Below are positions 30,794 through 33,764 of a DNA stretch of 64,000 bases, piece by piece. Source of the stretch: Rhodococcus sp. KRD162 (GTDB lineage: Bacteria > Actinomycetota > Actinomycetes > Mycobacteriales > Mycobacteriaceae); contig NZ_JABFAU010000001.1 in the NCBI RefSeq assembly GCF_017168335.1, positions 1-64,000 of the forward strand, given 5' to 3'. Below the pieces are notes generated by a model, which saw only the letters and a list, made by a program, of their open reading frames with translations, did no database searches and had not been told where the DNA came from. A program made the position numbers and the translations under genes. Position 1 is the first letter of the stretch. Every line of letters begins with the position of its first letter.

Positions 30794-30826
30794 TACCGGA
30801 AACGGTTTCGGCCAGCTCTTCGATCA

Positions 30827-30867
30827 GGCCCCGTTCGACGCAGACCACTGCTCGGACGGGGCTTTTT
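30827..30867 (+). terminator. Intrinsic terminator of the mce locus
   Basis: GGCCCCGTTCG pairs with CGGACGGGGC (one T:A-flanked wobble), with a 13-base loop and a following TTTTT at 30863-30867. It ends the twelve-kilobase Mkl-YrbE-Mce-Mas region. Confidence 0.8.
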
Positions 30868-31015
30868 CGTGCGCTTCTCGCCCATCTGTCGCGTGCGTGC
30901 GTGCGAGTTAACATCGCGATTGCGTCCTGGCTTGGGACGAGCCCTGGTTGCTCGGGACAACCATTCGACGCTCGACAGCCAGGGATGGATCCGATGAATA
31001 CGGAGCAAACTGGTC

Positions 31016-33592
31016 ATGACCGACACAACTATCGACTTTTCCGTGCTGGAATCGAGGTCCGGTCGTTCGGGCTTCGCCGAGAACGTGAATCCCGAACTGT
31101 ACCGATTGTTGTCTGCGCTGAATCTCGATCGTGAGTATGTTCGCGGCGACGGGACCGTGCTGTTCGACGCAGTGGGCCGTCGCTATCTCGATTTCGCGGG
31201 GGCATACGGTGCCCTTCCTTTCGGACACGGCCCCACCCCGATCTGGCAGGCAATCAACGATGTTCGCTGCAGCGGGGAGGCCATCTTCGTGCAGCCTTCG
31301 GTGCTGACGGCGGCCGGTGAATTGGCACATGAGTTGGGGCGCATCGCTCCCGGAGGGTTGACCCGAACGACGTTCGTCAACAGTGGTACCGAGGCGACGG
31401 AGGTGGCGCTCAAGATCGCTCGGGCACATACCGGGCGGCTCGGTGTGTTGACCACTGGGAACAGCTTTCACGGCAAGACGCTGGGAGCGCTGTCCGCGAC
31501 CGGAAATATCGAGTATCAAAGCGGATTCGGGGCACCGGTCGAAGGGTTCGATCACATAGTTTTCGGTGATTCCGATGCGCTCGATGCGGCCCTGTCCGCT
31601 GCGCCGGGGCACTACGCGGTGTTCCTGGTCGAGCCGATCCAGGGTGAGGGGGGAGTGGTCTGCCCACCGGACGGTTACCTGCACCGGGTGCGGGAAATCT
31701 GCGACCGGCACGGGGTGCTGTTGGCGTTCGACGAGGTCCAGACCGGGCTCGGCCGGACCGGGCGGATGTTCGCGTGCGAACACGAGGGCGTCGTACCGGA
31801 CATCGTGACTCTCGCGAAGGCACTGGGCGGCGGAATCGTGCCGGTGGGTGCGGTGCTGTGTGCTCCGAAATTGGTGGACGAAGGGTTCGCGCTGCGGCAC
31901 ACCTCGACGTTCGCAGGCAACGCGTTGGCCGCGCGGGTGGGCCTCGCGGTCGTCGACGAACTGACTCGGGACGACTGCGCGGTGGTGACGAACGCAGCGG
32001 TGCTCGGTCGGCAGTTGAAAACAGACCTGACGGCTCTGGCCGAGAAGTATCCGTCGGTGATCACCGATGTTCGCGGGCGCGGCCTGCTGCTCGGGATCGA
32101 GTTCAGCGCGGACCTGAACTTTGTCGGCCGGCAATCGCTGCTGGGTTCCATTGCCGAGCAACGCAATCTGACTGCGGTGATCTGCTCCTATCTCCTCAAC
32201 GTCGAGGGTATCCGAGTGGCTCCGACGCTGTTCGGTACCAGGGTGATTCGCATCGAGCCTCCGCTGACTGTGACGGCAGTGCAGTGCACACGCCTGGTGG
32301 CGGCACTGGATCGGGCGCTCGGGTATGCGGCGATGGGGGACTTGGACGGATTGTTCGGGCACCTGTTGGGGCGGCCGACCGTCGCCACTCCACCTGCGCT
32401 TGCTGCGCTGCGTCCGGGGCGGACCCCCGACATCGACGTTCGACCCTCGGATCGCCGGTTCGCCTTTGTCGCTCACCCTCTGGATCTGGGGTTCTTCGCC
32501 GCGTTCGACCCTGCCCTCGAGGTGTTCGATCATGCCGAGCGACAGGATCTGCTCGAGCGTTTCGCCGCGTCGACGTCCGAGCTCGACCCGGCCTCGTTCG
32601 TCATCGGCAGCGGCCGCGTCATCGGCGGTGGGGAGGCAACTGCTCACGGTGACCTGATCGGCTTGCCCTACACCTCCGAGCAACTGCTGCGATTGCCTGC
32701 CGAACAGGCGTTGCGTGTGGTGGGCGGTGCCGTGGACCTGGCGATCTCCCGCGGTGCCACGGTGGTGGGATTGGGCGGTTATTCGTCGGTGATCACCGGG
32801 AACGGGTTGGGCCTCGGCGTGACAACGCGGCCGATCACGACCGGAAACACCTTCACGGCCGCGGCGAGTCTACGGGCGGTACGACGCGTATGCCGCGAAC
32901 GCGGAATCGATGTCGGCCGGGCTCGGGTGACGATTCTCGGTGCTGCCGGAGCGATCGGCCGGACCATCGGCAGGCAATTGGCCGGCGAGGTCGGCAGCAT
33001 CGCATTGGTCGGCAGGCGGGGCGAGAGCTCGGTGATCGCGCCGAAGCTGTGGGCGGCGGCGCAGGAGATGGTGGCCGGTGCGAGAGCGGGTTCCGGCTCG
33101 GGGGATCTGGCCGGTGCTGTGGCCGCGGTCGATGGCGACATCGATGACCTGATCCGGTCGCGGCACATCGAGTTCTTCACCGATCCTGTTGCTGCGGTAC
33201 GGGATTCGTTGATCGTGATCGCAGCCACGTCGGCACCGCATGCGTTGATCGATCCGACGGATCTGATGGAGGGTGCCATCGTCTGCGATGTTGCGCAGCC
33301 ACCGAACATCGGCCGCGACGTGCGCGGTGAGCGGCCGGATGTGACCGTGTTCGACGGCGGCATCGTTCGGGTGCCGTCGGGTTCGGATTTCGGGTTGACC
33401 TACGGGTTGGCTCCCGGCCTGACATACGCCTGTATGGCCGAGACGATGCTGATCGCGTTGTCGGGCGAGTTCGAGCTCCGCAGTATCGGTACCAGTCTCG
33501 ACGGTGACAGCGTCGAGCGGCTGGGTGAGTTGGCCGATATACATGGGTTCGCGCTCGCCGAGGCGACGCGGTGGCGCGACGGCGGTCGGTAG
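31016..33592 (+). CDS. Fused class-III aminotransferase / acyl-ACP-reductase-like protein
   Basis: An 858-residue two-domain protein. Residues 1-430 are a complete class-III PLP aminotransferase: VNSGTEATEVALKIARAHTG, SFHGKTLGALSATGN, DEVQTG with Asp239, and LAKALGGG with the Schiff-base Lys268. Residues ~480-858 resemble cyanobacterial acyl-ACP reductase: GLGGYSSVI, TTGNTFTA, a Rossmann loop LGAAGAIG (641-648) and YACMAETMLIALSGEFE, whose Cys806 aligns with the acyl-accepting Cys of that enzyme. Acting in sequence the domains could reduce an acyl thioester to an aldehyde and transaminate it to an amine. That activity is inferred. The ATG has GGAG about 10 bases upstream. It stands alone between the mce locus and rpoB. 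Confidence 0.85.
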   Translation: MTDTTIDFSVLESRSGRSGFAENVNPELYRLLSALNLDREYVRGDGTVLFDAVGRRYLDFAGAYGALPFGHGPTPIWQAINDVRCSGEAIFVQPSVLTAAGELAHELGRIAPGGLTRTTFVNSGTEATEVALKIARAHTGRLGVLTTGNSFHGKTLGALSATGNIEYQSGFGAPVEGFDHIVFGDSDALDAALSAAPGHYAVFLVEPIQGEGGVVCPPDGYLHRVREICDRHGVLLAFDEVQTGLGRTGRMFACEHEGVVPDIVTLAKALGGGIVPVGAVLCAPKLVDEGFALRHTSTFAGNALAARVGLAVVDELTRDDCAVVTNAAVLGRQLKTDLTALAEKYPSVITDVRGRGLLLGIEFSADLNFVGRQSLLGSIAEQRNLTAVICSYLLNVEGIRVAPTLFGTRVIRIEPPLTVTAVQCTRLVAALDRALGYAAMGDLDGLFGHLLGRPTVATPPALAALRPGRTPDIDVRPSDRRFAFVAHPLDLGFFAAFDPALEVFDHAERQDLLERFAASTSELDPASFVIGSGRVIGGGEATAHGDLIGLPYTSEQLLRLPAEQALRVVGGAVDLAISRGATVVGLGGYSSVITGNGLGLGVTTRPITTGNTFTAAASLRAVRRVCRERGIDVGRARVTILGAAGAIGRTIGRQLAGEVGSIALVGRRGESSVIAPKLWAAAQEMVAGARAGSGSGDLAGAVAAVDGDIDDLIRSRHIEFFTDPVAAVRDSLIVIAATSAPHALIDPTDLMEGAIVCDVAQPPNIGRDVRGERPDVTVFDGGIVRVPSGSDFGLTYGLAPGLTYACMAETMLIALSGEFELRSIGTSLDGDSVERLGELADIHGFALAEATRWRDGGR

Positions 33593-33596
33593 TCGA

Positions 33597-33637
33597 CCGG
33601 GCCCGGGGTCTGCGGAAGGCAGTGGACCCCGGACCCG
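33597..33637 (+). terminator. Hairpin after the fusion gene
   Basis: CCGGGGTC (33603-33610) pairs with GACCCCGG (33625-33632), and flanking GGGC/ACCCG extends the stem loosely. A GC-rich terminator without a T-tract is likely, beginning 5 bases after the stop codon. Confidence 0.6.
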
Positions 33638-33764
33638 TCCTCGCTGGTGTCGACGGGTCGACATCACCGGTGGGAGGTCGCGAGCGTGTACGACGAATTC
33701 GCTGTACCTCTTGACGAAGGAAGACGCAGGGGTCACTCTTGTCGTGAAGGAGCACCCCCGTGGG

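Follow-up and report, generated by a model that had tools for sequence, protein, structure and literature searches.

Does a solitary gene lying between an mce operon and rpoB in a rhodococcus encode, in one chain, a route from an activated acyl group to an amine? The question arises from a 64,000-nucleotide stretch of DNA of Rhodococcus sp. KRD162, hereafter called the window, in which a preliminary description had noted a fusion of a transaminase with a domain resembling cyanobacterial acyl-ACP reductase (AAR). We refer to this gene here as TATR (transaminase-thioester reductase). The reading that we favor, with a probability of about 0.78, is that TATR is a TamH-type bifunctional enzyme that, by analogy with characterized relatives, would convert an acyl-carrier thioester via an aldehyde to a primary amine.

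Domain composition of TATR

As the preliminary description had it, the gene is one continuous frame of 858 codons (31016-33592, + strand) with an ATG start and 0 internal stops. A whole-genome search recovered it as a single copy at 100% identity (G000:C1:31016-33589) in the 5.9-Mb genome of the window strain, for which all whole-genome statements refer to a 109-contig assembly with a completeness rating of 100%; the remaining 13 matches show 30-42% identity and are confined to the transaminase (TA) part. The features are given below, with conservation counted in alignment A1, which comprises 37, among them the window's own sequence, of the 56 full-length fusions (55 homologs plus that sequence).

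31016..33592, + strand: fused TATR gene, 858 codons; start (MTD or MTG) conserved in 28 same-genus relatives
31130..32320, + strand: class-III PLP transaminase domain, aa 39-435 (Pfam PF00202, Aminotran_3; E = 1.2e-86)
31730..31732, + strand: codon of Asp239, which from its family would contact the PLP ring (37/37 rows)
31817..31819, + strand: codon of Lys268, the Schiff-base lysine as predicted from the family (37/37 rows)
32453..33565, + strand: AAR-like thioester reductase domain, approximately aa 480-850 (sequence and profile matches; Foldseek search with a reductase-only model)
32939..32959, + strand: GxxGxxG nucleotide-binding motif (G642, G645, G648; 37/37 rows)
33431..33433, + strand: codon of Cys806, aligned to the AAR active-site cysteine and to the cysteine of the PigE CMAET motif (37/37 rows)

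The N-terminal domain is, as had been proposed, an intact class-III aminotransferase with Asp239 and Lys268 in place, and its nearest solved structures are the TA domain of PigE (PDB code 4ppm) and the putrescine transaminase YgjG (4uox/4uoy). The C-terminal domain has no match to a Pfam family above the cut-off. Comparison of aa 456-858 with solved structures recovered the N-terminal domain of PigE (4ppm; E = 4.3e-25) and cyanobacterial AAR (6jzq; E = 4.2e-16), and profile searches with the reductase part unified it with the same two at 3.2e-56 and 2.3e-40. The suggested profile search against the AAR family itself bore out the similarity (TIGR04058, acyl-ACP reductase; E = 3.2e-16) and not the membership: the score of 59.6 bits is far below the curated cut-off of 449.7, so that the equivalog assignment fails. 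Structure prediction with AF2, likewise suggested at the outset, gave a confident whole-chain model (pLDDT 86.9, pTM 0.85), which has the PigE TA as its top PDB match, and in Foldseek searches with the reductase-only model (pLDDT 87.6, pTM 0.88) ranks 1-4 are all AAR chains (TM-score 0.69-0.71 by query). Judged by its sequence, the domain is correctly termed AAR-like, putative acyl-accepting Cys806 included, and to call it an AAR is too strong. Where the second strand of the nucleotide fold ends, 17 of the 37 rows of A1 (14 same-genus, 2 Nocardia, and L148) have the arginine that is Arg667 in TATR, aligned with an arginine of AAR, and the other 20 have Asn (18) or Ser (2); this residue hints at use of NADPH, as against NADH for PtTamH.

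Relationship to characterized enzymes

The supposition that no described enzyme has this architecture did not hold, since PtTamH, a 941-aa fusion from the tambjamine YP1 pathway of Pseudoalteromonas tunicata, has the identical TA-reductase order and performs the reaction in vitro. According to the published report (PMC9594044), PtTamH with TamA converts a C12 acid to the C12 amine via C12-ACP, using NADH and L-Glu; C12-CoA yielded no amine, ACP-bound substrate being required, and the reductase domain was recognized there as AAR-like. By that published description, PtTamH shares with TATR an N-terminal class-III TA, a C-terminal AAR-like reductase with a catalytic cysteine and GxxGxxG motif, and a linker of about 45-50 aa; it differs in needing NADH, whereas TATR has Arg667 and no TamA-like gene adjoining. 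TATR thus combines, in one chain, what marks the TamH/PigE-type fusions (a TA with the PLP Lys and Asp, and an AAR-like reductase with the catalytic Cys and GxxGxxG) in the domain order of TamH proper, and where TamH has TamA (adenylation-ACP) in the same cluster, the neighbors of TATR are the mce block and rpoB.

PigE, from the MAP branch of prodigiosin synthesis in Serratia, contains both domains and is the top-scoring solved relative of each by sequence, but its order is reversed, with the reductase first, and TATR scores 513.1 bits against a cut-off of 850 for the NCBIfam PigE equivalog (NF053554). In cell lysate PigE converts a thioester to a cyclized amine, while no product formed when the purified protein was given thioester and NAD(P)H (PMC8341465), by analogy with which enzymes of this kind may need further factors for activity. 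The cyanobacterial AARs (6jzq/6jzu/6jzy) share fold, active-site Cys, and motifs with the TATR reductase but stand alone, and they are 21-24% identical to it in Foldseek alignments. In PKS systems that pair a thioester reductase with an omega-transaminase, as for coelimycin (genes that we take to be CpkC/CpkG), the two activities lie in separate proteins. The coelimycin PKS, with reductive release and then an omega-transaminase, is drawn as an analogy in PMC9594044. The kind of enzyme is therefore already known from TamH, and TATR opens no new enzyme category.

In the part of the literature accessible to us, we found no Rhodococcus gene or product of this kind. Among 369 genomes of P. gingeri's class, 41 had a match at 1e-90, mostly to the TA part alone, and five carried fusions (G101, G529, G693, G702, and G584); the PtTamH-like spacing of motif Lys and Cys was absent from the four fusions examined. 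In G584 (L212) the TA-reductase pair lies inside a 3015-aa open frame. In two further proteins (L217/L218; G705/G670), with frames of about 950 aa, the class-III TA lies some 500 residues in, and the portion examined showed no match to a reductase.

Distribution and gene contexts of homologs

Homologous loci were taken as the best 80 of at least 583. Among the matches listed (loci L010-L149), at least 55 distinct homologs span more than 760 query residues: 28 from the same genus, 2 from Nocardia, 3 from Pseudomonas, 1 labeled Deltaproteobacteria, 20 from Bacillota, and L148 from the same family. Within the genus, the reductase is present in 29 of 37 genomes, the window's own counted. TATR is rare elsewhere in the phylum sample of 396 genomes: the reductase is matched in 45 at 1e-12, and at 1e-60 just in the own genome and G232, whose protein (L189) is a full fusion with 44% identity. 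Most of the remaining matches fall in frames of 200-460 aa; those in G436 and G445 are longer (779 and 754 aa). Two of 148 genomes carry the fusion in the genus of the Nocardia locus L046. Trees built by a quick method, with several long branches, and by a careful one both unite the same-genus sequences in one group, which the two Nocardia sequences adjoin. More distant fusions, at about 29-31% identity, are found at L148 (G042) and L149 (G028).

The gene contexts outside the genus link the fusion to carrier-bound acyl chains. In Nocardia sp. CDC159 (L046:75-10571, + strand), the TA-reductase module directly follows the second ACP of a PKS in one 3499-aa chain, KS-AT-DH-KR-ACP-KS-AT-ACP-TA-reductase (open frame, 3561 aa); genes for a fatty acid desaturase and a P450 come next. 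A PKS ending in an ACP lies just upstream of the fusion in N. puris (L064), an AMP-ligase and a desaturase lie upstream in a Pseudomonas (L060), with an ACP 5.4 kb downstream, and at L148 (17-14364) the fusion has as neighbors an NRPS module and a PPDK-like protein with a carrier domain. Together these contexts support a mechanism that starts from a carrier-bound acyl thioester.

At 10 of the best 80 loci (L070, L081, L084, L092, L094, L097, L100, L101, L102, and L103), TA and reductase are separate neighboring frames. In five of them (L094, L097, L100, L101, and L103; Atribacteria-labeled MAGs and one uncultured MAG), a small ORF lies between the two, which in L100 (3420-3863), the one checked, has a polyketide-cyclase/lipid-transport domain by Pfam; the other four have like genes. 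Stand-alone AAR-like reductases occur at L114-L117 (two Heliobacterium, Sporomusa, and a Bacillota MAG), near genes that by eye resemble greA and lysS and each with a neighboring protein of about 300-360 aa from one cluster; the one such partner tested (L115:7073-7975) has no Pfam or NCBIfam match.

The locus within Rhodococcus

In the window, the gene order is ABC ATPase, MlaD/Mce-type protein, mas1, mas2, TATR, and rpoB, where mas1 and mas2 are positional names for two genes with no Pfam match. The arrangement of mas1-mas2 followed by TATR in the same orientation recurs in 28 of the 28 other same-genus carriers, and mceF was found in 27 of them (not in L146). Two features flank TATR.

30826..30869 (approximate), + strand: intrinsic terminator after the mce operon, between mce and TATR, a strong hairpin followed by U5 (the z of -3.5 is that of the whole 224-nt stretch)
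33593..33641, - strand: short stretch like the 3' end of the MMPL gene of a sister strain (75.5% over 49 bases to L123, E = 9.7e-5; at the protein level a weak match of 17 aa, E = 0.018)

The mce terminator of the preliminary description is thus borne out, even though a simple scanner that allows loops of 3-8 only did not list it. A strict script that demanded exact stems detected the same GCCCCG..CGGGGC stem with TTTT in 9 of the 28 relatives; in 3 others it picked out a different hairpin, and in the remaining 16 no hairpin at all. We rejected adjacency to mce alone as proof of function: G016 (L179) has the mce block by rpoB without TATR, and in G010 (L178), also without it, a PKS cluster lies between the mce block and rpoB.

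The other flank is more variable. Among the 28 other same-genus carriers, the interval between TATR and rpoB holds a PKS cluster in 10 (G003, G004, G006, G011, G018, G020, G027, G028, G030, and G032), an MMPL gene alone in 6, and neither in 10, as in the window; 2 run into contig ends. Encoded on the strand opposite to TATR, the cluster (loci L168-L178, e.g., L170:1244-13295) consists of a small acetyltransferase-like gene (Pfam, just 18.7 bits against a cut-off of 27), an MMPL transporter (best NCBIfam match MmpL3, 515 bits against 1400), a BioF/serine-palmitoyltransferase-like oxoamine synthase (best match bioF, 329.7 bits against 426), and a PKS. The PKS is fully reducing (KS-AT-DH-ER-KR-ACP), its domains having been checked in G020 and its presence elsewhere scored by tblastn, as for all cluster gene counts; GC-based gene calling overlooked the oxoamine synthase gene of L173, L175, and L178. 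A KASIII gene lies on the other strand in 6 of the 10 cluster genomes. In G006 and G018, 7.0 and 1.6 kb of other sequence separate TATR from the cluster, and G018 has its PKS divided between two contigs. The view of TATR as standing alone with no pathway partner hence holds for this locus in the window strain and fails for the 10 of 28 carriers with the cluster.

A tight partnership of TATR and PKS is unsupported, because whole-genome searches found no PKS ortholog in 18 of the 28 other carriers and the fusion gene is missing from G010, which has the cluster. Across 36 genomes, a PKS ortholog (at least 73%) occurs in 11, of which 10 also hold TATR. A PKS elsewhere in the window genome was considered and rejected, the best match, to a different protein of 1686 aa, being 42% over a single KS and 31% over the part that follows; nor does that genome hold a close relative of the adjacent type of MMPL (best, 53%). 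On the fusion-gene tree built by the careful method, PKS presence needs at least four changes and MMPL presence at least five, and the window sequence groups with three MMPL-bearing strains at a support of 91/77, which is not strong. Given this grouping and the 49-base MMPL-like stretch, a possible scar of MMPL loss by its sequence, the orphan state in the window probably arose by loss, as read from gene order and one gene tree. In the genus, TATR probably once adjoined a lipid-type PKS cluster and was kept after the cluster was lost.

Selection on the fused gene

In 13 pairs chosen from 18 of the 29 genus sequences, dN/dS is 0.065-0.146 throughout (TA alone, 0.048-0.137; reductase alone, 0.056-0.143), and the matched region is free of stops in all 28 relatives. 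The seven pairs in which both members are orphans give 0.065-0.102, which is strong purifying selection, so that orphan TATR very probably works in the absence of the PKS. The terminal branch of the window sequence is long (0.075-0.078), but shows no elevation of dN/dS (0.065-0.084 across four pairs).

Predicted function and alternatives

The TamH-type reading builds on intact domains, conserved catalytic residues, predicted folds, purifying selection, and genomic associations, with the reaction, its carrier-bound substrate, and its direction taken by analogy from the characterized relatives. An acyl group on a carrier (acyl-ACP or another phosphopantetheine thioester), docked at the C-terminal AAR-like domain, would be transferred to Cys806 and reduced there by NAD(P)H to the aldehyde, which would be handed to the N-terminal PLP transaminase and converted to a primary amine with an amino acid as donor. 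Feeding of the aldehyde to the transaminase of the same chain, as envisaged from the start, is in keeping with the predicted folds and residues and with the homologs TamH and PigE. Since the PKS cluster was probably lost while the gene was kept, the most likely source of acyl groups for TATR in the window strain is the ordinary fatty-acid pool or another carrier. No carrier or ligase gene lies beside TATR in the window. Elsewhere in the genome, the 7.7-kb contig C68 (G000:C68:11-4925; L230) encodes an adenylation-ACP didomain, a formyltransferase-like protein, and an MMPL protein in a row, and this didomain, although unlinked to TATR, is a possible acyl supplier.

The same two domains could in principle run the other way, the TA deaminating imported alkylamines or diamines and the reductase acting as an acylating aldehyde dehydrogenase that passes an acyl thioester to beta-oxidation, with mce importing the substrate. 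Each half-reaction is in principle reversible, YgjG, which among solved single-domain enzymes is closest to the TA, is catabolic, and TATR follows the two genes downstream of mceF in all 28 other carriers. We nevertheless regard catabolism as unlikely: both characterized fused relatives are biosynthetic, fusion or proximity to genes for PKS, NRPS, ACP, and desaturase points the same way, and the position next to mce is weak evidence because mce loci without TATR exist in G016 and G010 and a terminator separates the two in the window. Still less probable is that TATR serves the PKS/oxoamine-synthase/MMPL pathway as its dedicated off-loading or amination step, with the copy in the window a remnant in the course of being lost. 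The shared locus in 10 genomes, the co-occurrence in 10 of the 11 genomes with a PKS ortholog, and the possible MMPL remnant would fit such a history, but the orphans are equally constrained and free of stops, the cluster has a probable off-loader of its own in the BioF-like oxoamine synthase, and G010 keeps the cluster without TATR.

The reductase domain also shows weak similarity to glutamyl-tRNA reductase (GluTR; 3oj0, E = 5.4e-6; 1gpj, E = 1.3e-5), and channeling between GluTR and GSAM has been discussed as an analogy (PMC8341465). A pair resembling GluTR and GSA aminomutase, with an aminoacyl group in place of a fatty acyl group as its substrate, is, however, very improbable, as the PigE and AAR profile matches are far better and cover both domain halves, and the AAR chains lead the Foldseek ranking, in which the first GluTR entry is at rank 39. 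We thus retain the TamH-type reading, in which TATR would make a primary amine from a carrier-bound acyl chain.

Implications

These observations take the TamH type of enzyme beyond a few pigment pathways: in one Rhodococcus genus, 29 of 37 genomes have the gene, and there are full-length fusions in Bacillota, Nocardia, and Pseudomonas as well. TATR offers a natural one-protein route from an activated acyl chain to an amine, with a PKS-fused natural version in a Nocardia, and its locus points to an uncharacterized PKS/oxoamine-synthase/MMPL cluster at rpoB. As a speculation that we hold to be doubtful in its entirety, rhodococci of the window's group might make an undescribed amino-lipid: TATR would supply a primary fatty amine, the ancestral cluster (acetyltransferase-like, MmpL3-like, BioF/SPT-like, and fully reducing PKS) would elaborate and export a sphingoid-like or N-acylated envelope amine, and several lineages, the window's among them, would have dropped the PKS part and kept amine synthesis. 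If this is true, the fatty-amine step would belong to the near-core envelope chemistry of the genus and not to antibiotic chemistry.
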